A stretch of DNA of 46,961 nucleotides from a bacterium (GCA_020631605.1 JAHDGZ010000004.1:1-46961); one strand, 5' to 3'; shown: positions 6,207 through 43,061, numbered from the stretch's first letter. The notes: generated from the letters alone by a model not told the origin. Translations and numbers: made by a program.

Positions 6207-9200
6207 ATGAGAAAAGTAATTCTACAGTTTTTGTCATTATCGCTACTAACAGCTTCAATGTTCGGTTCTGCAATAGCAAACGAGCAAGCTTTTCTCGAAA
6301 ACTTAAAAACGACTGGTCGGGATATTGAGGAGTTAACGAGTAAATCAACTATATCTCGTTATGAGATAACAAGATTACTCAATGCAGTCAACTGTAATGA
6401 TTGTACCAATCCCTCACAAAGCACCAGAGAATCATTTGACTCAAATCGATGGAACACCTTCCAGGGAGAACCAGGTAATAACTTCTGAGACATACAAGAA
6501 CCATACACCACCTACGAAAACGACAACTACTACTACTGTGTGGCACATGTAGGAGATGAATGATATATGAATTGATATCCTATGCAAACCAGTCCTATTT
6601 GTTGATGAAACTTTTGTTGAATTAACAACACTACCAACGCAGAGTTTATCCAAATACTTATCAATATTGCTGCTCCATTGGTAGCATCAGATATTTCTAC
6701 AAATCGAGCAACCATTCAAGAATGGACTAAAAGTTTATCCGCTACTGAGTTACAAGAAAAATGATGGAATCAGGGAGATCAGACAGTAATAAACCTTGGA
6801 GAATTAAAATGTGGTAATCAGTCATGTAAATTATCTCAGAGAGATGAAGTAAGCACCTATCTCAAATATTGTCGTTTCAATCTAGATGCCTGTGCCATGC
6901 GTCCATATCCATGATTACAACAGTGAGCATGGCCCGTATCAGAATTGAACTTATTAGAAAAAACAAACATACTGACACAAGAACAAGAATACTTACAGTG
7001 AAACTTATCTATCCACAATCTTGTTGCTCCGTTCACAGCAATACAAGCTTTTGCTAACATATTTGATATTGTCCAATGTACACCAGATCATGACTATGAT
7101 TGTGATACAGTAGACAACGCAAGAGACAACTGTCCCTATACATACAATCCTTCACAGGATAATTATGACAACGATACATATGGAGATGTATGTGACAACG
7201 ACACTGACAACGACGGTATTCAAAATCCAATATGAATTATAGATGAATCTGGAAACATAGTGATTGAAGTGATCACAGGTGATCGAGATCAATGTCTCTT
7301 TGACAGAACCAATACCACTTGTAGCAACATAGCAGAACTTGGTCTGTCTATTGATGTCACAGACTTGAACATCACAGATGGGACACAAAGATATAGCATC
7401 AATGTATCGAGCCAAAGCAACAGCGACACATCACAGGTAGAATGGATCACTTCTGATGGATACAGTTACAAAGGGAGCACCATAGAGCATACATTTACCA
7501 AAGCATGAATGCATTATATTCAAGCTCAAATCATTAAATGAGATAGGAGTGCTCAAGCTGCAGCTAGTGTCTACATACCTACAGCAAACGCATTAGATAA
7601 CTTCTTCGCATCTGTTGATTCATATGATGACAAACAAGTATCACTCGACATACCAACAGTTCCATCATCAGACTCAGTTGAAATTCTTCTCAATGGAAAA
7701 AAAAATCAAGAAAAAAAGATCATAGTAGATTCACAATCAACAAATATTATTAGTGTACTTCACAAAGATACAGAATGACAAACAATAAGCATCAATGAAA
7801 TCTCACACTACAAAAATCAATGAAATGCATTTCTCTTTCTACTAAAAAACAACTCCTCAAGCATTGATGTAAACTCTACCTTACTAGTTGAATCAAATCT
7901 CAATATATCAGCTGACCAGATTCTTTCTCACCAGTGGTATGTGAACCAAAATAAAGTACAATCAGATCGTACAAGCTTATCATACACAATTCCTGAAGCC
8001 GGAGTTTTTGTGATTCAACAACGTATTATTCTCCTAGACGGAAATACTCTACAAGCTACTCTTACGGTCCGTGCTCGTGACTTACAGCACTCACAGGCAT
8101 TTTCATACTCATTAGTACCTGATGAAATAATTTTCAATAATACTGGTGCAAGTAACATTAATATATCAAATACAGCAACATTGGTACCAAGTACTCATAT
8201 AAGAAAAAATGAAGCAGTAACTGAGGTTGAGTTCGATTTGATACCACCAGCAACCATATGAGTCATGCGACCATTGAGACAAGGAGGACAAAACACACTC
8301 TCATATGATATATTTGACCAACACTGCCTCTCATTACATAGTAAAGCAACTGTGATTAAAAATAGGTCGAAAACATGCTTACAGCATTTCAATAATCCCC
8401 TCTCTTCAAACCTCATATGTGATCAAGACCAAGACACTATTCCTGACATCTGTGACAATGATATAGATGGAGATTGAGTACCCAATCTTATCTGACTTAT
8501 TACTCATGAGAAGAGTGACTGCTCGATAGACAAATCAAATATTAATCGAAATTGGGTTCAACAAAAAAGTCAAAATCCTGATCGAATATGATTTGATAAT
8601 CTTTCTTGTCAGTTAGACAACTGCCCATTCAATCAAAACAGTGAGCAAAAAGATCAAAATAATGATGGACAAGGAGATATCTGTCAATGACTCGCTCAAC
8701 TACTCAACACATGAAAATCCTATAGATATTCTCAATGAGTGTATACAGGTTGATCACAGACATGATTCATACGAAACAAAACAGACAAAGATAATGATGG
8801 CATCAGCGATCAAGATGATGCGTGTCCATCATTAGGTGAAAATTATAATGGTCACTTCGACAAAGACGGTTGTCCAGAAATCAACCCAGATCTATGATGT
8901 ACATCAACACCAATCCCTATTGCTCTACCTGCCCCTACTCCTAGAGAAGATGACTATTGCAAAGAACCGTATCCAATAGAATGCGTTTGTGAAGGACTAA
9001 CTCAGAAGCAATGTTGTCAACAACACAATCAAGACTGTCCTGATACAGGCGATGATGATGGTGAAGATGACAATGAGTGTAAAGAAGATCCTTATGGATT
9101 AGAGTGCAAATGCTTTGGCCTCACACAGCAACAGTGTTGTGAACAACAATGATTAGATTGTAAAGACTACTGTAAAGAACCATACCCAGAAGAATGTAAA

Positions 9201-10535
9201 TGTGAATGACTTACTACTGAACAATGTTGTATACAATATTGATTAGACTGTCCGGATACTGGCGATGATGACGGTGAAGATGACAATGAGTGTAAAGATG
9301 ACCCATATGGACTAGAGTGTAAATGTTTTGGTCTTACCGAGCAACAGTGTTGTCAAGAACAATGACTAGATTGTAGTGATTATTGTAAAGAGCCATATCC
9401 AGATGACTGTATCTGTGAAGATCTCACACAAGAACAATGTTGTGAACAGCATGGGCTAGATTGCCCTGATACGGGTGATGATGATGGAGAAGACGAAAAT
9501 GAATGTAAAGATGAGCCATACGGACTTGAATGTATGTGTTTTGGTCTCACGCAAGAACAATGCTGTGATCAATACGGATTAGACTGTGACGAAGATCATT
9601 GTAAAGAACCTTATCCAGACGAATGTAAATGCAAATGATTGACAGCTCAACAATGTTGTGAGCAGCACGGATTAGACTGTCCAGATGATGAAGATGACCC
9701 AGAAGAAGATGATGATAAATGTACTGAAGAACCATACGGAATAGAATGTATGTGTTTTGGTCTTACGCAAGAACAATGCTGTCAGCAGCACGGATTAGAC
9801 TGTGATGACGATCATTGCAAAGAACCTTATCCAGACGAGTGTAAGTGCAAATGATTGACAGCTCAACAATGTTGTGAGCAGCACGGATTAGACTGTCCAG
9901 ATGATGAAGATGACCCAGAAGAAGATGATGATAAATGTACTGAAGAACCATACGGAATAGAATGTATGTGTTTTGGTCTTACGCAAGAACAATGCTGTCA
10001 GCAGCACGGATTAGACTGTGATGACGATCATTGCAAAGAACCCTATCCTGATGAATGTCTCTGCAAAGATCTCACACAAGAGCAATGTTGTGAACAGTAC
10101 GGACTAGACTGTCCTGACGATGAGGATGATCCAGATGAAGATGACGATGAATGCACTGAACAACCATATGGAGCGGAGTGTATGTGTTATGGACTCACAC
10201 AAGAGCAATGTTGTGAGATTCACAACTTAGATTGTCCTGATGACAATGAATGTAACAATCCTCCTTACTGACCAGAGTGCATATGTCATGAACTCACACA
10301 AGAACAATGCTGTTTTCAACATCAACTAGATTGTGAAGACTGACCACCCATTATATTACCACCAGACGATGAAGATGGACCAGTCATTGATGTCATTGAT
10401 TGCAATATTTGTCCATGTCAATTTGTTGATTTTGAATCAGACCTAAATAAAGAGACACTTATTAAGACGAGACTTTATGACATAACAAAAAAGCGAGTCT
10501 TTGATGACTCACTTCCTCATGTTATTCAACGATAA
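6207..10535 (+). CDS. Giant exported protein with calcium-binding-type repeats and cysteine-rich modules, 1442 aa
   Basis: Starts MRKVILQFLSLSLLTASMFG with a signal peptidase-type site after SAIA (residue 24). Residues ~290-345, ~738-760 and ~800-895 carry thrombospondin-type-3-like Asp/Asn/Gly/Cys repeats (for example DNDTDNDGIQNP and CDNDIDGDGVPN), expected to bind calcium. Residues ~375-470 and ~570-640 look like beta-sandwich (PKD/Ig-like) segments. Residues ~918-1380 are 13 cysteine modules, described separately. The C-terminus ends LPHVIQR with no LPXTG or membrane anchor. Dozens of TGA glycines are needed to keep the frame. Secretion and many disulphides suggest a surface or secreted adhesin or cell-contact protein; that is inference. 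The DsbA-like protein at 18950 could oxidise it. Confidence 0.88.
8958..10343 (+). repeat. Thirteen tandem six-cysteine modules inside the exported protein
   Basis: The module pattern is (K/T)xxPYxxECxCxGLTxxQCCxxxxLDC, followed by either a long acidic linker ending in cysteine (PDTGDDDGEDDNEC or PDDEDDPEEDDDKC) or a short one (DDDHC, KDYC). Long and short modules alternate, giving a ~216-nt two-module period for most of the array. Each module has six cysteines, including an adjacent CC pair. The consensus is very regular (EQCC in nearly all copies). The last modules (ending NLDCPDDNEC and QLDCEDG) are more divergent. I do not recognise the module as a named domain; the acidic linkers could bind calcium. 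Confidence 0.9.
9630..10042 (+). repeat. Near-perfect 216-nt tandem duplication
   Basis: By eye, 9630-9826 and 9846-10042 are identical over 197 nt with a 216-nt period. Third-position differences begin immediately outside (for example GTAAA versus GTAAG before, CCTTAT versus CCCTAT after). The other module pairs differ at many synonymous sites, so this pair is a recent duplication or the product of gene conversion. Confidence 0.85.
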
Positions 10536-13658: not shown

Positions 13659-15962
13659 ATGGAGGAAAAAAATCACTATACTCTACATATTCATCAAAAA
13701 TATGTATCTGTCATGTGACAAAGAAAAATCAACAGACTCAAAAGACAAGCAGGTGATGCGCTCGACAAAGGGAACATGCAATCTTTTTGAAATAAAGTAG
13801 ATAAATTACAGCAAGAGTTTCAGAAAGCAGGAGTTGAATATGACACACAGACAGAACTTTTCATGGCACAAAGAGACCAGCTTAGAGAAGATATTGTAAG
13901 CGATCAGGTGAACAAACTAACTGCAAAATCAAAAGGATATGTAGAAGTAAAAAGAAGAAAAGCAAAACGAGAAACATACAGCGAATTTGATAAATGATAT
14001 AGCACCAACAGATCTAAAAACAGATCTCCACAAAGCTACTCTACCAGAAGACGCCAAAAAGCAAAAGATGAACGAACGGGAAAAGATCATTTGAGAAACT
14101 GAATAAGCAAAGCTGATCGAATGAGTAGTAGAGGTAAAGGTATAGCATCAGGAGCAATGGGAATAGGCTGACTACTCCTCTGAGGTTTAGCAATTTGGAA
14201 ATGAATTTCTTTGGCCTCAAATCTTATAAGTGGAGATACAGAAAAAGCAAAAAAGAATGCCTGAGCACTAGCATTGTTCTGATGAGGTTGGTTCCTTATG
14301 AATGGAGTCAAACTAGGTAAAGCATGGCAATCACTAGGAGGGAAATCATTCGATGAAGTAGTTGCTGAAGACAACAATAGAATTGGCAATACGAGCAAAG
14401 CAAAGGAAAGAGAAGAACAATACACACAGCCAAAATTTCTAGCAGCAAAACTATGATGAGTACCACTTAGCGTCATGCAAAAACACATGACATTCAAACC
14501 CAATGGTGAAGTAAAAAACATTGACCATAAAGCACTAGAAAAAGAGCTATGGGAAAGAGGAGAAACTGGACAAGCTCTTGCTGTGCAAGCTGCATTTGAA
14601 ACCAGTTCATGTAAGAGAAAAATGATCAAGGCAATGGCTACTTTATGAATTACTCAAGCAGCCATAGAAAGTGCTATACAAAGTGGTGATACAAAAAAAG
14701 ACACAGTAGCATGGTATTACGCCAAGAATAAAGACAAAATAGAAAAAGCAGGCAAAATCGGAGAAGAAACAGAAAAGTTTGAAGATCCTCACAACTACTC
14801 TGCTAAGCTGAGTAGCCTAAAAGCAAGCAAAGAAACAAAAGAATGACTAATCTCTGAAGTAAACAAAATATGGATAAAAACTGCTAGCAAAGTAGATCTA
14901 TCAGTAGTCGATGGAAAAGTATTAATGCAACAATGATGAAATAGTGTTCTACTGGACATAGATGGATACGCTAAATCCTATACAACAATTATTAATGGTG
15001 AAAAATACCCTTCTCACAAAGAAATCAATGATGTGAGAGATCTCGTCAGACGAGCACAACATGAGATGTGGGTAATCAATGAATTCAAAAACAAAAAAAC
15101 TCACTCAGCAAAACCTTTCTACACCTCTGGTGATGGCATCATGTTTGATCAAGCTCCATTCGAGCGACTATCATGAAGTAGTTACTTTAATCGTGATGCA
15201 CTTACTGTCTATGGGGATGGGATTCTATCATGATACTTTGCTTCTCATACCAAAATAAACGCACTTGATAACGACAACAATCTGAATTACTACCGTGATC
15301 GTCTCAATAGCCTACCATGGAACAACAAAGTAGAAGCAAATCCTGAACAGTTAGATACACAGAACGTTGCATTTGTTTCTGCGATCCTCACCTGAATAGA
15401 AAATATCAAGGAAAAAATAGATGGAATTTCTGTAAACAAAGAGTGAGTATCAGTTTTCACTATCAACGGAGTACAACAAAGTATTGAGCAAACTCGAGAA
15501 CTAATAAAACAAGGTAATCCAGGCGCATGGACAGGCGCACTAGCAGGCAAGACATTTAAATTTATAGAAAACACAGCAGTTGATGTTGTAAGTTGATCTG
15601 CTATAGCGTTAGGGAACAACCTAAAATCAATGTATGAAGCCGCATCAGAAGAGTTATCTGACTCATACACGCTCAATCTAGCAAAGAAATTATTAGTAAA
15701 ATCAGGAGAAAAAGCTGAAAACATAAAAAGTGCTACCATTAAAGGAGGAAAGCTCGTTTACACTACTGTAGTAGATGGGACAACCCAGACAGTTGAAAAA
15801 GTTCGAGATGGGAAAATATGATATGCACTTGGTTATGGAGCTATTGAATGAGCACAATTTGTCGGAAATGGACTCTGGACCATAGTGAGTGAAGGAAGTT
15901 GATTTGTTGTAAGATCTACCAAAGAGTTTTTTGGTGGAATTGTAGATGCACGAAACAATTAA
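13659..15962 (+). CDS. Large unrecognised protein with two central-N-terminal hydrophobic segments, 767 aa
   Basis: The N-terminal ~150 residues are basic and helical (QRKINRLKRQAGDALDKGN; KAKRETYSEFDKGYSTNR). Two glycine-rich hydrophobic segments follow at residues ~160-215 (SGAMGIGGLLLGGLAIWKG and ALALFGGGWFLMNGVKL). A long soluble region (~550 aa) of mixed alpha/beta character extends to the C-terminus (ending FFGGIVDARNN). Family not recognised. It may be a membrane-attached protein with a large domain on one face. Many TGA glycines occur, notably in the hydrophobic segments. Its TAA at 15960-15962 overlaps the stop codon of the convergent O-antigen-ligase-like gene. Confidence 0.8.
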
Positions 15963-17296
15963 ATTCTAGTATAATTTCATACAAACACTCAAAGTACAAT
16001 CATCAAACTATAGATCACTTGCACATCAACTAAACTATGATGGAGCATTCCTGCAGCAAACAATAACAAAAGACCAAAGGACAAGAGAAATGGAATAAGC
16101 ATAACTTTTTCTCCCCACAGCGAACGAACTCCAAGAAAAAAAACCAACAACCAAGAAACGAGATACAACAAAAGTCATGGCACTCACCACTCTACTCATA
16201 ATTGGAGATATTGATTTTCAGTATTAAAAAAATCTTCATTATCAGATCACACTCTATAACTAGCAGGTCATGATGCACCTGCGCCTCGTCACGATAGTGG
16301 TTTCTCTCAAAGAAAAACAATACCCTCTAACAATAGTTCCATATGTCACTTATCTGATAACTCTCTTTCCCAAACTCACTGATTACGCTCTTCTGCAACT
16401 GGAACATCAGCTGGTCAAAGGAGAGAAACAATTCAGTAACTAGACACAACTCACAAACAAATACAACTTAGCACTACTAGAATATGTCTTTTGTATCAGA
16501 GAAGAATCACTAGCCCAATAGCCAAAAAAGATCAGACTAATAAGAGAAACCACACTACTCTAGAAAAGGTCACAACAGCAACCACTATCGTTGTGATCAA
16601 GAAAAGCATATCTTGCCATCTGATAGGAGATTGGTGCTTCATGAGTATATTTCCCAGAATCAGTGGCCAAAAAGCTATAAGATAAAAACCTCGACTTACT
16701 GGTCAACCAAACAATCACTGTCCTCTAATATATCATCGCCACACATTAGTAAGATATCTAGCTGGTGGGGATTCATTGATCACCCATTGTCGTGCATCCA
16801 AACTATATCAAAAGAGAGAAAAAAGATCAGGAACAAAATGTAATCACAAATACCAGATCAAACCACATCAAACAGCGACTTTTAGAAGATTTTGAAGTCG
16901 AAAAAGCAATCTATTCTTTTCTATCCAGTGATATCATGATAGTCCATACAGTATCAAGAAAACAATAAAAGGAAAATAATCATATCTAATAGCAACAAGC
17001 CATTCTGTGATAGTTTGATCATAAAAGCCAAAGCTAACTATTACTGTTCGGATCAAAGAAAAAAACAATAACATAGTTCACAGAAATCGATAGGCTGGAA
17101 GTAGTTTCCATCATTTTGTTAGTATATCAAAACACAAGAGTCCTCCCAAGAATAGTATAACTATTTCTTTCCACACCCATACTCGTTGGACATTAAAATC
17201 CCAACCAAAACTTACAACTGTGTGAACAAAAAAATGTATTAGTAGACCGACCAACAACACTTTTATACTTCCTAGAAGCAGGCTATCTAGTTTCAT
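15959..17296 (-). CDS. O-antigen ligase/polymerase-like membrane protein (second of a pair), 445 aa
   Basis: Starts MKLDSLLLGSIKVLLVGLLI (alternative GTG 17302). Multiple hydrophobic segments fill the protein. AIRYDYFPFIVFLILYGLSG resembles the 'R-Y-D' region before the long periplasmic loop in Wzy/WaaL-type proteins. A later loop is polar, and the C-terminus carries LLVFFLGVRSLWGEKVMLIP and ends VGNYTRI. The likely role is joining or polymerising lipid-linked glycans at the outer face of the membrane. It starts directly after the upstream paralogue (its GTG abuts that gene's TAA), so both are co-transcribed. TAA 15959-15961 overlaps the convergent gene's stop. Confidence 0.75.
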
Positions 17297-17302
17297 AGTC
17301 AC

Positions 17303-18694
17303 TTACTCTTTTCAATAAAATGATTGATTCATAGCATATCCAGAAACCAAACCAACAAAAATCAAGAAGAGAAAATTAAACTGACTATCTCTCCACACAT
17401 GCAGCACCAATCACTCTATATTCAAGCAAACTAATGCTATGATAAGGCCAAGCAACACATGGTAAGTTAGAGTATTTCTATGCCCTTTATGGTAACGTAC
17501 TTGCTCCAACAAAAAGAGTAAAAACAAAAGCCAAAAAAGACAATACAGAACAATCCCTGGTAGTCCCATGTTCACAGTAAGTTGAAGGTAGACATTTTCT
17601 ACAAGAGATAAGGAGTTTTTCTCATTATCACTATAATCTGCCCAATAGTGCCTAGCTGGACCAGCTGTTCATGGACCGTATCACCAGAGATTTGACTGTA
17701 ACATCTCTAATGCAACAACATTTCAGCTACCACGTTCAGCGTTTGATCACTGTTTAAGAAAATTGACTCATCGAACCAACAGCGTCGAAAAACTAATCAA
17801 AATAATACTTAGCAGTGTTTTGCGAAGCATACTCTTACTCTCATCAGCAAGTAATCGAATACTCAGAATCAATGCTAGTGATCAAGCAACATATGCTCAT
17901 CTAGAAAACGTTAACAATAGACATCATCACCATAACACTCGAACAAATCATGAAATAAGACGCTCAAAACGCATAAAGTAACTAACTGTAGCAAATTTTT
18001 GCTTTACTGCCAAAAAAAGAAGTGGAACTACGGAAACAAGGAAAAATCAGAACACATTGGGTCAGACGAATAAGCCAGACAGCCTCATAAGGCCACCTGA
18101 TCATGTCTTATAAAACAATGGCGGTGCCTCTCATGGAAAGAAATCACCAAATGGTCAATACCCCAAATAAGTGACAAAAAAATCAGGAAGAGCAACCTTT
18201 CATAACTGCCAAATAATTCAAGCACCAACTACAGCAACAAACATAAGCAAAAACCAACGAAGATTGTTTTTTGTAATAAGTCATTGAACTAAGCCTACAC
18301 TCCCAACAAATAATCAACTCACAATAAGCAATAAATAATACCAATCGTACTTGAATCATACGAATCGTTCATACCATCAAAATCCTGATGAAAGAGACAC
18401 CCATCCTGATCGTATCCCCATCAATAATAAAGTAACAAGAATCGCAAAAGGAAATCTAGAAGTCCTAACCACATTCTTAAAGTACAGTGACAGTTTGTTT
18501 CATTGAAATCAAAGAATTATAACATACAGAACAATAAGCCATCGTAGTCAATCTCTCAACAACCAAAAAAGCCATTGTCACTCTCATGATCAAATTCCAT
18601 AAAGAAAAAATGTTTCTAAAACAAAAAACAAGAGTAATCGAACAAAATAACCAAGTAATAAATGCGGCAAAATTATTTGTTTCAGTTTCTTCAT
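17303..18694 (-). CDS. O-antigen ligase-like (Wzy_C family) membrane protein, 463 aa
   Basis: ATG 18694 (MKKLKQIILPHLLLGYFVRL) to TAA 17303. Roughly 10-12 hydrophobic segments. FVGFKYDWYYLLLIVSG precedes a stretch corresponding to the Wzy_C core: LLLTFSRSAYVAGSLALILS matches the 'TxSRgaw' motif of O-antigen ligases. A large polar loop follows (GYGPGTAGPARHYWADYSDN, then SLVENVYLQLTVNMGLPGI, the conserved 'N-x-YL-x-x-x-x-x-G-x-x-G' block). Role: transfer or polymerisation of surface glycan. CPR bacteria generally lack LPS, so the acceptor may be an S-layer or surface protein; this is inference. Heads a two-gene unit. Confidence 0.82.
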
Positions 18695-35329: not shown

Positions 35330-36853
35330 ATGAAACTTTTTTTTCTCGAGACTGATACACTCTTCAAGATATTTAAAACTATCGAGAAAGTTCCTCAAGG
35401 CAAAAAAATAAGCGTCTTTATAGAAAAAGGGAATGATTTCTTTCAAAATGATCGACGAGCAAAGCAGGTACAAGAACTCTTAGAAAAGAAAAAACTGCAG
35501 GCAACATTTATAGCAAAGCATCAGAAAACTAGAGACTACTATGAAAAAGTATGACTTCCTTATTTCTACGAAGGAAAAAAGCAATGGATGGAAGTGCTCA
35601 ACACGAGCTACCTCTTTCTCTTTAATATAAAAAAATTTCACCAGTCAATCTACCAAAAGAGGCACTATATCAGCTACATCATTTTTGGTTGTGAGATTCT
35701 TGTGATTGGAGTCATACTATATCTCCTTTACGCACTTATCATACCTAGTAGTAGCCTCTATATAACGCCTGAATACGAGGTAGAAGATATTATTTATAAC
35801 TTTCGTTACTATCCAGAGAATCAAGTAGAAACAAGATTAGAAAATGACAAACTCAGTATCCCCTATCATCGTGGGAAAATCAAATACTCGCATTCATTAA
35901 CAACAAACGTAGCAAACATATCAAGTCAGCAAAAACCTGCACAATGATCTATTACTGTCTACAACCAAACAACACAAGAGCTAGAAATATTAAGCAATAC
36001 GCAGTTCATTACTGATGATGGAATGATCTTCAAGAGTCTCAAGGCATTTACCATTCCAGCTAGTACAGATGATAACCCATGAACAGTGGTGATCGATGTC
36101 AGAGCCAATGATCTAGATGTCTATGAAGACATCATAGGAGAAAGAGGGAATATTCCATCCGACACGACCATGTATATCAAAAATCTCACAGAAAGTTACT
36201 TCCTAAAAAAAATATATGCCATCAATGAAAAAAAATTCACTGAAGGAGAGACCATAAGCAAAGGATCTATTACTAGCAAAGATGTAGAGCACCTAGAACA
36301 AGAGCTAGCCAAGTACGTTGAAGAGAACAAAGAGGCCATTGTGAGGCAGTCATTTGAGTTACCTGATGCAATAGTACTACCCTTCAATGAGTTAATTAGC
36401 TTTGACGTAGACAAGATCAGCACTGAAAACAAAATTGGAGATATTAAATCAAATGTCAGTGGAACAATCTCATCTACAATATTAGTACCTTACATCAAAG
36501 AGAAAGACCTTATTGATGCCATCATGAACTACCTCAAGCAAAGGAAAACCAACACGCAAAAGCTGATAGATATAGACACAAAATCAATCATTTACTACGA
36601 CATAAAAGAGCAAGATCACACTATACTCACTATTCCTACATCAGTAAGTGCTATATTTGGATATGATTTCGAAAATGATACAAACGGAATCAAAGAAAAG
36701 ATCAAAGCTGAAATTACAGGGAAAAGCACAAAAGATGCACGTAACATACTACTCTCTTATCCAGAAGTCGCATCAGCTGAAATAAGCATCAAACCACCAT
36801 GGTATAATCAAATACCTACAACAAAATCTAGGATTATTTTTAAAGTAAAATAG
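35330..36853 (+). CDS. Baseplate J-like / membrane-anchored protein of CPR type, 507 aa
   Basis: Cytosolic N-terminus of ~110 aa (MKLFFLETDTLFKIFKTIEK; FIEKGNDFFQNDRRAKQVQE), then one membrane segment (IIFGCEILVIGVILYLLYAL). A ~370-aa external beta-rich region follows, containing VTVYNQ-type Ig-like stretches (SITVYNQTTQELEIL) and ending GKSTKDARNILLSYPEVASA followed by EISIKPPW and SRIIFKVK. This 'DAxxxLxxxPgVxxxxixxxPxW...' end is seen in proteins annotated as baseplate J-like in CPR genomes. Its stop is 2 nt before crtB, so both are very likely co-transcribed, though no functional link is evident. Confidence 0.7.
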
Positions 36854-36855
36854 TC

Positions 36856-37764
36856 ATGCAAAAATATATAAATAATCATGGTACTAGTTATAGATTAGCG
36901 AACTATTTCTTTCCACAAGACATCAAAGAAGAAGTTATTGGTCTCTATGCTTTTGTTCGCATTCCTGATGATATAGTAGACTCAAACAAGACTCCAAACA
37001 AAGAAAAAAGAGAACAATTAGATGTATTAGTCTCACAAGCAAACCACATACTTCAGGGAAACAGAAAGCATAAAGAATGAAAAGAAAAAAAATGAAGAGA
37101 AAGAGAAGAAACAGAAAACGAACGAAACAACATTTGTTTCTTCGTAAGAGAAATCGTTAATAAATACGAAATACCACAAGAATGGATCACAGCATTCTTT
37201 GATGCAATGTACAAAGATTTAGAGGTAAATCGCTACACAACGTACCAAGAACTCCAAGGATATATGTATGGTTCTGCTGAAGTTGTATGACTCATGATGA
37301 GTAACATCATTGGTTACAATCAATGAGATAAAAAAGAGGTCATACGTACTGCATCACTACTAGGAGAAGCCATGCAATATACAAACTTCCTGAGAGATGT
37401 CTATGAAGACTATATAGAATACAATCGTATCTATATGCCTATAGATAGGTTAGAAAAGTACTGATTGGATCACCAAGATATCATTAACTTATGTAATGGA
37501 CAAAAGGAATCATTTGCTAACCGAACACTATTTATCAAAGCACAAATAGCACTCACTCGTAAGCTCTACGCTGAAGCTAATACAGGGATTAAGCACCTGA
37601 ACTCTGAAGGACAAAAAGCAGTATGGTATGCTTCACAACTGTATGAAGCAATCCTTGATAAGATAGAGAGTAAATCGTATGATGTTTTTACTACTGATAT
37701 GCACACAACACGCTGGGAAAAAGCAAAAGCACTATACACAGCACGAAGAAAACAACCATTTTAG
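36856..37764 (+). CDS. crtB: Phytoene (squalene/phytoene) synthase
   Basis: Condenses two geranylgeranyl diphosphates to phytoene. First Asp-rich motif is YAFVRIPDDIVDSNKT (DxxxD); second is YTNFLRDVYEDYIEYNRIYM (DxxxD), with YMPIDRLEKYGL after it as in CrtB. GYMYGSAEVVGLMM matches the YCYxVAGxVG block. 302 aa. A charged insert (KEGKEKKGREREETENERNN) replaces a usually short loop near residue 75. Starts 2 nt after the baseplate-J-like stop; ubiA follows 9 nt later. Confidence 0.93.
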
Positions 37765-37773
37765 CAATCAATC

Positions 37774-38703
37774 ATGATGCAAAAAAATCATAGAGTCCTC
37801 TCTTTACGTAAGCTTATTCAATTATCACGTCCTCGTTTTCGATTATATGTATTAGGTCCTTTTGTTATTGCATGGATAGCATGATTTACGCAATGAGGAA
37901 AGGGTATAGATCATGCTCGTGAGCTTATCTCTATCGCATACCAAAATCCTTGGATCAGCATATATACCCTTGTGGCTGTGCTCTATTTTAGTTTTTCTGC
38001 TAATCTGCTCATTTATTGAGTCAATGACTATGCTGACCGAGACACTGATCAGCATAATCAAAAAAAATCATCATATGAAACTGCTACTTCTCCTGAATAT
38101 AGACCAAAGTTAAAGAGATCTCTGCTGTATCGAATGATACCAAGCACCATAGCACTTATGGCTACTATTCTTTGGTGAGGTTTTATGAATGTGTGATCTC
38201 TTCTCATAGCGTTGGGATGATTTTTCTTCTTCGCAATTTTCTATAGCTTGCCTCCAATTCGCGCAAAAGCAAGACCATTTATTGACAGTATATTTAATAT
38301 TTTATACCAGTTTTCTGCACTTTTTGGATGGGTAATCGCTGGTCATGCTCTCACTGATTATAGCATATGGGCATGGATTGGGTGATGGTTATGAATGATG
38401 GCTCGACATACATTCAGTGCTATTCCCGATATCGAACCTGACTCCATTGCAGGGATAGAAACAACCGCTATTTACTTGTGAGAAAAAAAATCACTACTCT
38501 ATTGTGCTACACTATGGTTACTAGCCTTTCTTTGTTTCTTTCCACTCATCTCTCGACGAATACTACTTGGGATCATTGTATTCTGTGGGTTTTGTGCTAG
38601 TGCATATCTTATCAATGATACCTACCGCATATACAAAATCATACCATGGATTATCCCATTTCTGTGAACAGCATATTTCCGAATACTTCTACTCTTCGTT
38701 TAG
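37774..38703 (+). CDS. UbiA-family prenyltransferase, lycopene elongase-type
   Basis: Integral membrane prenyltransferase, 309 aa, ~8 hydrophobic segments. First Asp-rich motif is LLIYGVNDYADRDTDQHNQK (NDxxDxxxD); second is AIPDIEPDSIAGIETTAI (DxxxD). With crtB, crtI and cruF around it, the likely reaction is addition of C5 units to lycopene (LyeJ/CrtEb type), the step that makes C50 carotenoids. A quinone or other UbiA substrate cannot be excluded from sequence alone. Its TAG (38701-38703) overlaps the TAA of the convergent cruF gene. Confidence 0.85.
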
Positions 38704-39338
38704 AGTACAATCAGTAAAAATCAGGTAACATACATGCTTACAAAAAGGTATCACAACATCTTGAGGATATTGTCTCCTCTCAACGCTGTACACCAATGCA
38801 AGAATACAACAGAACTAATTCATCCGGTAAACAATCGGCCTAAATAATTAGTTCGTGGTATACCAAATCGTGAGAAAGAGCTTGCTCAGGTATAGATCCA
38901 TAGTCATTGATGCACCGCAACTGGATCTAGAAAAAGATCCAACATCATAAGCAGTAGTCATCATAAGAAAAAAGAGAGACGAAAGTTCTTAGTAGGCAAA
39001 AATTGTAAGATACTAACAACCAACAATGGTCGGATAACTAATAAGCTAAAGGGGAAAGTTCAGAAAAATCTTGGACCTATCAGCGGTGTGTATTCAAAAC
39101 ATCAGTATGGAACACAGGTAGTGATTCAAACATACTCTATCACTACTCCAAACAATGCCAGCACAAGAAGTCATTTCCCTACCTGCCAGCCATATCTGTG
39201 AAGCAAATAGATACTCAGCAGTAATCATCACAGAATCATTACTACAAATGATATCCACGCATTCTGTTCAGTAATAGGAGTATGAATCATCCCTCGACCT
39301 ATAATTGCACCACAGATGAGAAGCAGAATCTTATGCAT
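38700..39338 (-). CDS. cruF: CruF-type carotenoid hydratase (DUF422 family)
   Basis: 212 aa with ~6 hydrophobic segments. Family blocks visible: VVIEYVGITTCVPYGCFEYT (Glu68, the E-x-x-G...G-x-x-x-Y pattern), PLIGPRFFGTFPFS, LMMLDLFLDPVAVHQGLWIY (D-x-x-x-D-P-x-A...W-x-Y/W) and RFGIPRTNYLGRLFTG (Y-x-G-I-P-x-x-N-x-x-G). These match the carotenoid biosynthesis family containing bisanhydrobacterioruberin hydratase CruF. The reaction would be hydration of terminal C50 carotenoid double bonds. Its ATG lies inside the end of crtI (8-nt overlap), so the two are translationally coupled. Confidence 0.8.
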
Positions 39339-40806
39339 TTACATATTTTTTTACTCTTTCAAAAGCTAGCTGTCAACTAATTAGGCACATCGGCATACCT
39401 ATTCATGGATTAGTATATCCACCAGCGTAGAATAGATTTCTCACTTTTTTGCTTTTAGTGTTTGGTCTAAAAATAGCAGTTTGTTTCAAAGTATGAGCAA
39501 GACCCAAAGCACTTCCTTGAAAAGCGTTGTACCTTTCTTGAAAGTGTTCAACTCCAAAATATTCTTCCTCTACTATACGATCGACAAAAGAATCACCTAT
39601 TTCATTCTCTACTATAGACAGGATACATTCTCTATATTCCTTCCTCTCAGTATCATCAAGTATCACTCATGGTGGGAAAGGCACAAGGATGAACATATTT
39701 TCATGTCACTCTGGTGCAACAGATGGATCAGTCTGAGATGGACAACAAATATAGAAAGAAGGGTCTGTTGGTGCTTTCTTTTCATCAAAAATATCTTTGA
39801 AATTTTCATCTCGATCTTCTGAAAAAATAAGGGTATGGTGACACAAACCTTGTACTTTTCATTTGATCCCTAGATAAAGAATAAAACCGCTAGGTGCCAT
39901 CATCTTCTTGTCTCGATAGGTCTGTGGATAGGTCTGTCGCTGTGTGTCCAATAGTTTTGTCTCTGTAAAATGATAATCTGCATTAGAAATAATTATATCA
40001 TACTCAATGAAATCTCATTCCACCTCTACTCACGTCGCAACTCATCATTCTACTAAGATCTTATCTACGGGAGAGTTCACATGAAAACGAACACCCTTAT
40101 TAGTAGCTATAGAAACCAATGATTGAATAACCGCATTGATTCATCCTTGTGGATATCGGACTCCTCCATTGAAATCTACATGTGTCATGATGTTGTACAT
40201 CGCTGGAGCCTTTTTTGGTGGTGTTCACAAGAACACAAGCGTATATTCCATAATTTTTTGCATCATATCTGAGGAAAAAAACTTTTTCACATAACTATGG
40301 AGATTACTTAGTACCTTCATCTTCGTTCACTTGGTCATCATATCCCAAGTAAAAAAATCAAAGACACTGTCATAGTTCTTTGGAACCATATCCTGCATTG
40401 CGATATCGTATTGATACTCAGATATCTTCAAATACTCATAGAGTTTGTCTGTAGATCCAGGCTCTATATCTTCAAAAGTCTCTCTATTCCTTTCTATATC
40501 TTTGTAGACATCAATAGTTTTCTCTGTTCCTCAAAAATATATTTTATAAGAAGGATCCAACGGAGAAAGCTTGAGAAAATCATGTACATTTAAGTCAAAA
40601 TGAGCGAAATATTGTTCAAACAAATCAGGCATGAGATACCAACTAGGTCACATATCCCAACGAAAACCATTTCTCTCAAGGACACTGGCTCTTCATCACA
40701 GTTGCTCATTCTTTTCATAGACTGTGACATCATGTCATGCATGTGCACAATAAATAGCAGACGATAATCATCCGAAACCACTACCAATAATTGCTATTTT
40801 CGCCAT
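39331..40806 (-). CDS. crtI: Phytoene desaturase-type flavin amine oxidase (CrtI/CrtD family)
   Basis: 491 aa. The N-terminal dinucleotide fold is MAKIAIIGSGFGGLSSAIYC, with YEKNEQLGGRASVLERNGFR and MGPSWYLMPD, all classic CrtI. VRYPQGGINAVIQSLVSIA and the C-terminal FYAGGYTNPGIGMPMCLISG (GxxTxPGxGxP family signature) complete it. The likely activity is desaturation of phytoene to lycopene. In a C50 pathway a second, CrtD-type desaturase is also needed, and none is seen here; this enzyme may do both or the other lies elsewhere. It starts 64 nt from the divergent GGPP synthase and overlaps cruF by 8 nt. Confidence 0.92.
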
Positions 40807-40870
40807 ATCCTATTTGTAATTGTAAAGAGATTACCTAAAAAGATATGCACTTTAACACAGAAAGCAATCC
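40807..40870. promoter_or_regulatory. Divergent promoter region between crtI and GGPP synthase
   Basis: 64 nt separate the two start codons. On the crtI side a TACAAT box lies 12 nt before the ATG, and AGGA lies 2 nt before it. On the other side no clear -10 is obvious (TTAACA, ~16 nt from ATG 40871). Both directions must be served from this short region, so shared control of the carotenoid genes is likely. Confidence 0.45.
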
Positions 40871-41881
40871 ATGAATCTCAAAGAATTTCAACAAAAATGT
40901 GATATATACCTAGAATCCTATATAGAAGAAAAAATACAATCAGTAACATGATATTTTCCTGACTCTACAACACTTGAGCTAGTAACTTATTTGCGCAAGT
41001 TTATGCAAAAAGGAAAACGCTTTAGGCCCTATATGGTATACATAGGTGGACATCTATACGGAGACAAAACATTAGAGGAAGTGCTTTCACTATGAGTTAT
41101 CCATGAGTTAGTGCATATATTTGCTTTGATTCACGATGATATATGTGATTTGTGAGATATGAGACATCACATCCCTACCTACCACAAGCACATAGAAAAG
41201 AAGCATCAAAATCAGCATCTAGGAATAAGCCAAGCTATGTTGGTATGAGATCTGGTATATACACGAGCTTTACATCAAGCAAGCGTAATCTGAGTTGATC
41301 ATCCACTTGTACAGCAAACAGTCTATGAGATGCTCAATGAGGTCATTTGTGGCCAGATGCTTGATGTGCAATTCTCTCATGAAAAAGAAAAACGCAGTGA
41401 TAAAGAAATAGCCCACAAAGATAACCTCAAGTCTGGACAATACTCTATCGCAAAACCATTACTGGTTGGAGCAATTTTTTGATGAGCAAACCATGAACAA
41501 CAAGAAATAATCAAAGAAATAGGCGTGAATATGGGTATAGCTTTTCAAATGAGAGACGACCTACTTGATCGGCTGCCAAACAATGAATGAAAAGACATGA
41601 TGAGTGATATCCAAGAAGGAAATCAAACAAGCATTCTCTCAGAGTTAGTTACTTTGGTAGATAATCCAAAAAAATTGTGGGAACTAAGAGGAAAAACACT
41701 ATCTGAGAGTGATAAACAGTACCTGGTAGATTTGTTCAAAACGCACAATACTCAAGAACACACACTGACAAAGATACAAGAAAAATTGAGTAAGGCACAA
41801 TGATTGGTACCATGACTGCATGCAACAGAGAAAGGAGAATTACTTCTTGAAAGTATGATAGTAACACTCAGTTCAGTATAA
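40871..41881 (+). CDS. crtE: Geranylgeranyl diphosphate synthase (polyprenyl synthetase)
   Basis: 336 aa. RKFMQKGKRFRPYMVYI contains the GKRxRP motif; VHIFALIHDDICDLGDMRHH is the first Asp-rich motif (DDxxD); HLGISQAMLVGDLVYTRA follows; KPLLVGAIFGGAN and FQMRDDLLDRLPN give the second DDxxD. The bulky residues just before the first motif (F/A at -5/-4) fit a C20-type product, but chain length is only inferred. Supplies GGPP to crtB. It is the last gene of the carotenoid cluster and is followed by a strong terminator. Confidence 0.93.
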
Positions 41882-41954: not shown

Positions 41955-43061
41955 TTATCTTGGAGGTGGAGGTCATCCAGCTCATCTTGGTCAACCGCCT
42001 CATGGACCTCACTGCCCTCATCATGGTCATCACTGAGAGGCAACCTCACCCTGCAAACACCTAGGTATATAAGGAAAATCATCAGTAAGAAGATATGAGT
42101 ACTCACCATCTATGATTACTCCATTACACTCATCAAGATCTCAAAGAGATTCGTCAAAAATCCAATCAGAAACATAGGTACCATCTGGCACAGATCAATC
42201 TATCTCTACATCCAAGCCTCTATATTCACATGATGTTCAACTTCTTAGCTCACTGCTCAGAGTATAACTTGGCTCATACGCTCATGACTTTGAATAATAC
42301 ATAGAAAATCCATCCTTAGCAAATCACACATGCACTAAGTCTTCTCCATGTCCATGATCAGCGTATTCTACAAGATCCTCTGATATACCATGATAATGAT
42401 AAGTTCCTGTAGGTTGGACATGAGCATTTTGATCATCAAGTCCTATCACATCAAAGGTGTTTTGCTTGGCTTCTATCCTATAGGTTTCTCATGTATCACA
42501 TTCGACACGTTCTGCAGTTTCTGGTTCAAATTTAATTCAGTTGATGGCTACTCAAGGCTCTCTTGCCCATCACTGTCAATCTGTATATACTCACTCAATT
42601 GGTAGTTCATAGGAATTATCTTGTGCTGATATAGTATTCGGATTTGCGTTACTCGGAAACTGTCCTGTATCATGATTCGGTAGCGCATTGGTTGTGATAT
42701 AACGAGTTTCACCATCTACAGTAACTACCGTTTTTGTGCCATACACTTCATCATCTATCTCATATGAATCGGTCATATAGTTTATTCATAGAGAAGGAAT
42801 ACTTTCACCTACGATACTGCCTAGAATATAATCAAGCGCATAAGTCACTCATTCATTGTTCTGATACATAGTTTTATATCATTGTATCTGAGTCACAAAT
42901 GTTCCACGAAGAGATTCTCACTGGATGTCTATGATAGTTTCTATTCTTTCTACGAATCAATCCAACTTTTCTAGTAGTGATACACTTGGTGTAAAAGCAA
43001 AAGTTGTTGAAAAGAATATTAATCAAGCAACTAAACCAGTAAAAAAAATATTTCTACTCAT
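41955..43061 (-). CDS. Exported YHYH-domain protein with a glycine/proline-rich tail, 368 aa
   Basis: Signal peptide MSRNIFFTGLVAGLIFFSTT FAF (hydrophobic core, residues ~5-23). Middle section: CDTGETYRIEAKQNTFDVIG and then the hallmark PTGTYHYHGI, followed by ADHGHGEDLVHVGFAKDGFS. These histidine-rich stretches match the YHYH domain family, of unknown function and found in marine bacteria. The C-terminal tail is GGPGGGQGGPGGGGPRGAGG followed by PPPPR, with about ten of its glycines encoded by TGA. Expected to be secreted or surface-exposed. Confidence 0.85.

Follow-up and report, generated by a model that had tools for sequence, protein, structure and literature searches.

The DNA examined here (the window) is a bacterial contig of 46,961 nucleotides (JAHDGZ010000004.1 of assembly GCA_020631605.1) which carries at positions 36856–41881, in ~5 kb, five genes that likely make up a set for the synthesis of a bacterioruberin-type acyclic C50 carotenoid. 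A phytoene synthase (CrtB/PSY; 36856–37764, 302 aa; PF00494) and a UbiA prenyltransferase of predicted LyeJ type, or lycopene elongase (37774–38703, 309 aa; PF01040, NF009516), are encoded on the plus strand; a predicted CruF-type carotenoid hydratase (38700–39338, 212 aa; PF04240, TIGR03460) and a CrtI-type phytoene desaturase (39331–40806, 491 aa; TIGR02734, NF058655) on the minus strand; and a geranylgeranyl diphosphate (GGPP) synthase (40871–41881, 336 aa; PF00348) again on the plus strand. All frames are open and full length when UGA is read as glycine (translation table 25) and contain, in the same order, 5, 10, 13, 18, and 10 in-frame TGA codons, 56 together; the five genes, the TGA glycines in each, and every motif quoted in an initial annotation of the window were thus recovered.

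The genes form three strand blocks (+ +, − −, +) and not one operon: the convergent lyeJ and cruF share 4 bases at their 3' ends, the minus-strand frames of cruF and crtI have 8 bases in common, and a 64-base gap separates the divergent crtI and GGPP synthase genes. The interval 35330–41881 initially proposed for the set is retained in its portion 36856–41881, while 35330–36853 encodes an unrelated 507-aa protein, left out of the set because neither Pfam nor NCBIfam returned a family for it and none of the examined clusters contains a relative. Its gene ends two bases before the phytoene synthase gene, with which it may be co-transcribed.

Family assignment of the five proteins

Profile searches returned full-length family matches for all five proteins, with Pfam E-values from 3e-23 to 2e-56, every one above the curated cut-offs, and chance is excluded. 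The UbiA protein (PF01040, E 7e-24) presents the Asp motifs NDYADRDTD at residue 84 and DIEPD at residue 219, invariant among its relatives, and its best family is that of lycopene elongases, NF009516, with 186 bits (E 7e-55), followed by families at 117 and 88 bits. The models of quinone, heme, and chlorophyll prenyltransferases (UbiA, MenA/MqnP, CyoE, ChlG) reach 22–34 bits. Haloarchaeal and bacterial UbiA proteins encoded beside CrtI, used as controls of NF009516 and its top scorers, obtained 467 bits in Natrinema, 433 in Halosimplex, 256 in UBA3360, and 225 in Subsaximicrobium, and the homologue of the recoded relative G078 reached 210 bits, above the cut-off of the model. In the trees the window protein is grouped with relatives of its own family (support 100/99), near UBA3360 and Subsaximicrobium; E. 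coli UbiA, MenA, and CyoE were discarded as outgroups due to saturated branches (5–10 changes per column) that made the rooting unusable, and family scores were used instead. A search of solved structures gave no match for this protein. Both its best score and its tree position are with the lycopene elongases encoded beside CrtI and not with quinone or heme prenyltransferases, which fits a LyeJ-type lycopene elongase.

The second diagnostic protein is a clear member of PF04240 (E 3.3e-23, 83 bits versus a cut-off of 25), with PYGCFEY at residue 77 and LDPVAVHQG at residue 137, and its sequence fits a predicted CruF-type C50 carotenoid hydratase. In a tree that is weak in places, the CruFs linked to LyeJ, including the window protein (SH-like approximate likelihood-ratio test, SH-aLRT, 90), are apart from the Bacteroidota CruFs of loci without LyeJ; the search of solved structures retrieved only a weak chance match.

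The remaining three enzymes are those leading to the C40 chain. The GGPP synthase (PF00348, E 2.1e-40) has its two Asp-rich motifs, DDICD and DDLLD, at residues 89 and 229, with a Phe at −5 and an Ala at −4 before the first, an arrangement that in type I synthases fits a C20 product; its nearest solved chains are the GGPP synthases 3lk5 and 1wy0. The phytoene synthase (PF00494, E 2.4e-56, positions 2–263 of the 263 of the profile) contains DDIVD at residue 38 and NFLRDVYED, with DVYED at residue 181. CrtI (Pfam E 1.5e-35) carries GSGFGGL at residue 8 and PGIGMP at residue 467, and scores 456.6 bits with TIGR02734, above the cut-off of 238.1. The same genome encodes, near Mur-ligase-like genes and away from the carotenoid genes, one more homologue of squalene/phytoene synthases, of divergent sequence (L003, G000:C22, 8836–9825; PF00494, E 4e-42).

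Conservation and genetic code

In the family of the window, which belongs to the Candidate Phyla Radiation (CPR), CrtI was found in 16 of 49 genomes, distributed in 11 of 22 genera, and LyeJ accompanies it, in one copy each, in 13 of these 16 and in all nine of high quality; the three CrtI genomes without LyeJ are 65–75% complete. LyeJ is therefore the constant partner of CrtI in the family, an association in favor of C50 over C40 products. The two genes are in the same cluster in eight genomes (G000, G078, G140, G162, G169, G173, G197, and G233); the order and strands PSY+ LyeJ+ CruF− CrtI− GGPPS+ (GGPPS, GGPP synthase) are kept in G197 and G078, and the portion CruF− CrtI− GGPPS+ on a short contig of G193. 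The recoded set is also present, rearranged, in G042, a single 1-Mb contig that is 98% complete, and G217 encodes PSY, CrtI, GGPP synthase, and a divergent CruF with no LyeJ found, so that its product may differ. Within the class, 9 of 288 genomes have a PF04240 protein, eight of these genomes belonging to this family, and PF04240 is above cut-off in 18 of 380 genomes of the wider CPR, where standard-code sets with LyeJ were also found (L125–L128). The C50 gene cluster is a lineage trait of this recoded CPR family and not a stray transfer.

The reading of UGA as glycine in the five genes is supported by the correspondence of TGA columns with conserved glycine sites of standard-code homologues: glycine occupies 521 of 1077 homologue cells at TGA columns, the next letter being alanine with 103, and 660 of 1188 at GGN columns, where alanine is again a distant second. 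In CrtI, glycine is the plurality residue at 15 of 18 TGA columns, and at several of them all 25 homologues have glycine; one such column lies inside the GxGxxG motif binding flavin adenine dinucleotide. The same code is used along the whole 47-kb contig; the scan for tRNAs, which covered the window, found only tRNA-Ser and tRNA-Met there and no tRNA-Gly of UCA anticodon.

Other loci of the window and of its relatives were recorded. A YHYH-domain protein (41955–43061; PF14240, E 1e-41), which has 26 glycines encoded by TGA and a tail rich in Gly and Pro, is convergent with the GGPP synthase gene, and a tandem pair of adjacent O-antigen ligase-like proteins (PF04932) lies at 15959–18694. In G078, whose cluster resembles that of the window more than those of the other relatives, a retinal gene set (L132, G078:C23, 1027–4071) encodes a Blh beta-carotene dioxygenase (PF15461 and TIGR03753, above cut-off), a lycopene cyclase (PF05834), and, with the sodium-pump motif N-D-Q in helix C, a divergent rhodopsin, all with UGA as glycine; of the 49 genomes of the family, 1 was found to have Blh. 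Rhodopsins with NDQ were described in Absconditabacteria in 2021 (PMC8406219), and rhodopsin-bearing Saccharibacteria reportedly have no blh (PMC9296517). A rhodopsin as partner of the pigment was discarded for the window's genome, in which neither PF01036 nor Blh was found.

Proposed pathway, alternatives, and precursor supply

The C50 product initially proposed is favored by the LyeJ-family score and by the grouping of CruF with the LyeJ-linked CruFs. In the scheme inferred here, as regards the order of reactions, 3,4-desaturation by CrtI, exact end product, precursor uptake, and physiological role, the GGPP synthase would generate C20 GGPP, two molecules of which would be condensed by the phytoene synthase to C40 phytoene; the single CrtI would convert phytoene to lycopene and probably also introduce the 3,4 double bonds; LyeJ would add one C5 unit onto each end of the C40 chain, and CruF would hydrate the added C5 ends. 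The red pigment would span the membrane of a reduced, probably host-dependent bacterium as stiffener and antioxidant.

Several observations weigh against this scheme. The window's own genome (G000), a draft of 51 contigs, is 86.8% complete; the UbiA protein is 19 bits below the NF009516 cut-off (186 versus 205), and the best NCBIfam model for CruF, TIGR03460 (bisanhydrobacterioruberin hydratase), gives 69.6 bits, below its cut-off of 154.7; about half of the CrtI-bearing relatives have no CruF match. Moreover, CrtI is 7 bits under the cut-off of NF058655 (CrtID; 632.8 versus 640), a model that is itself non-discriminating, as a Chitinophagaceae CrtI with a second CrtI-family gene in its locus scores 734. 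After this control NF058655 was rejected as proof of 3,4-desaturation, and due to its non-specificity the attribution of this step to CrtI stays inferred.

A rather unlikely alternative is that the set, devoid of a dedicated CrtD, makes C50 carotenoids that are not desaturated at 3,4 or are incompletely hydrated, such as tetrahydro-bisanhydrobacterioruberin or flavuxanthin-like compounds, which accumulate in the c0507 mutant of Haloarcula japonica (PMC11946383). The family searches found one CrtI per genome and neither a second CrtI-family gene nor a dedicated CrtD, so that any 3,4-desaturation would have to be carried out by CrtI; this finding, the non-specific model, and the relatives without CruF are all consistent with the simpler products. 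On the other hand, CruF is present here and groups with the hydratases of C50 loci, and in H. japonica each of two CrtI-family proteins has both CrtI and CrtD activity, as demonstrated by knockout and complementation, a dual activity that the same authors proposed for the single-CrtI Rubrobacter (PMC11946383).

It is very unlikely that the UbiA protein prenylates another substrate (a quinone precursor, heme, or an aromatic compound) and that the pathway ends with a C40 carotenoid, a psi end of which would be the substrate of CruF. The UbiA superfamily is broad, the score is under the NF009516 cut-off, and CruF works on C40 ends in other bacteria; nevertheless, the LyeJ-family score is far above those of the quinone, heme, and chlorophyll models, the gene is clustered with CrtI in eight genomes and occurs in one copy in 13 CrtI genomes, and CruF is separated from the C40-type Bacteroidota CruFs in the tree.

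As regards the origin of the genes, in trees obtained with a quick method the CrtIs of the family form one clade (SH-aLRT 84), apart from the haloarchaea (100), inside a group (98) comprising CrtIs of C50-type loci (Rubrobacter, UBA3360, other CPR) together with Subsaximicrobium and Microbacteriaceae, to which the haloarchaea are a neighboring clade (96); the latter are a separate clade in the trees of all three proteins, CrtI, LyeJ, and CruF, by which a haloarchaeon is ruled out as near donor. That the genes were recently acquired from haloarchaea or the current host is hardly credible: haloarchaea are the best-known carriers of LyeJ and CruF, and CPR are host-associated, but the separate clades, the TGA codons at conserved glycine sites, and the spread of CrtI across 11 genera argue against it. 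The initial annotation had considered transfer from a halophile or host possible, and is corrected here as to a near haloarchaeal donor. The data fit a C50 lineage of bacteria that was either exchanged between CPR groups or handed down inside them. A Patescibacteria metagenome-assembled genome (L057, 440–3033) encodes GGPP synthase, PSY, and CrtI in a row, readable in the standard code, and its CrtI groups with Subsaximicrobium. The probability that the contig is a contaminant or was wrongly binned into the incomplete 51-contig draft is negligible, since UGA is glycine across its 47 kb and homologous recoded clusters exist elsewhere, including the single-contig G042, through which contamination was rejected.

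The absence of isoprenoid precursor genes, initially noticed in the local view only, was corroborated by two whole-genome searches. IspH (PF02401) was found in 3 of 24 family genomes and HMG-CoA reductase (PF00368) in none of the 24; neither was detected in the window's genome, where the absences rest on family searches, nor in its close relatives with the cluster (G042, G078, G173, and G065), nor in any CrtI-bearing genome of the sample more than 93% complete (G042, G065, G078, G140, and G148). No PF00348 protein other than the synthase of the cluster was found in the window's genome, cis-prenyl synthases not having been searched, and eight cluster-bearing genomes that were checked have one PF00348 protein each. 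PF00348 is present in 16 of 16 CrtI genomes versus 16 of the 33 others (hypergeometric 1.8e-4, assuming independent genomes, which they are not). Other Gracilibacteria were reported, in a survey of CPR from freshwater, to have genes of the mevalonate or methylerythritol phosphate pathway (PMC9166423), and the family of the window appears to differ from them. The simplest reading of the gene content is the uptake of C5 units or prenyl diphosphates, for which no transporter was identified, with host, prey, or surroundings as the most likely source of C5 precursors or short prenyl diphosphates. The apparent absence of an own route to isopentenyl diphosphate, the single polyprenyl synthase, located in the cluster, and the recoded, reduced genome tentatively suggest a possible carotenoid pathway depending wholly on C5 units or prenyl diphosphates scavenged from host or prey. 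If true, imported precursors would be spent on a membrane pigment, and both precursor transfer between host and episymbiont and pigment use in very small cells would become testable.

Comparison with known systems

The bacterioruberin pathway of haloarchaea (H. japonica c0507–c0505) employs the same three downstream families, CrtI/CrtD, LyeJ, and CruF, also clustered; in contrast, the window genes are bacterial, UGA-recoded, and in separate tree clades, PSY and GGPP synthase are included in the cluster, LyeJ and CruF are convergent, and no own C5 pathway was detected. The loci of Rubrobacter LC5_2 (L027) and Chloracidobacterium UBA3360 (L026), which contain the nearest named CrtI relatives (52% identity), share with the window the adjacent PSY and LyeJ, and L026 also CruF, but both use the standard code and L026 has a different gene order. 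In L026 one open frame (8321–9661) joins CruF to a type 1 isopentenyl diphosphate isomerase, which may be a fusion that connects the C50 pathway with its supply of C5 units. The CPR clusters L126 and L127 (family f81) and L128 (f148) share with the window all five genes, GGPP synthase, PSY, CrtI, LyeJ, and CruF, contained there in ~6 kb; they differ in the standard code and in gene order, with GGPP synthase, PSY, and CrtI together and LyeJ reversed.

C50 carotenoid genes in CPR are not new: lyeJ, crtD, and cruF were described in 2023 in Patescibacteria of Lake Baikal (Baikalibacteria bins and Saccharibacteria), with a proposed role in cold adaptation (PMC9948471), which weakens the surprise initially attached to the finding; no paper attributing own C50 carotenoid genes to Gracilibacteria or Absconditabacteria was found in the open-licence literature. 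The Lake Baikal genes are on different reads or far apart and recoding is unmentioned (PMC9948471), whereas in the window five recoded genes, with one desaturase, are contained in 5 kb. While bacterioruberin genes in Patescibacteria are thus already known, the interest here is in the recoding, the conservation, and the missing precursor pathway, that is, in a C50 route conserved in a recoded CPR family whose cells seem unable to make isoprenoid building blocks.

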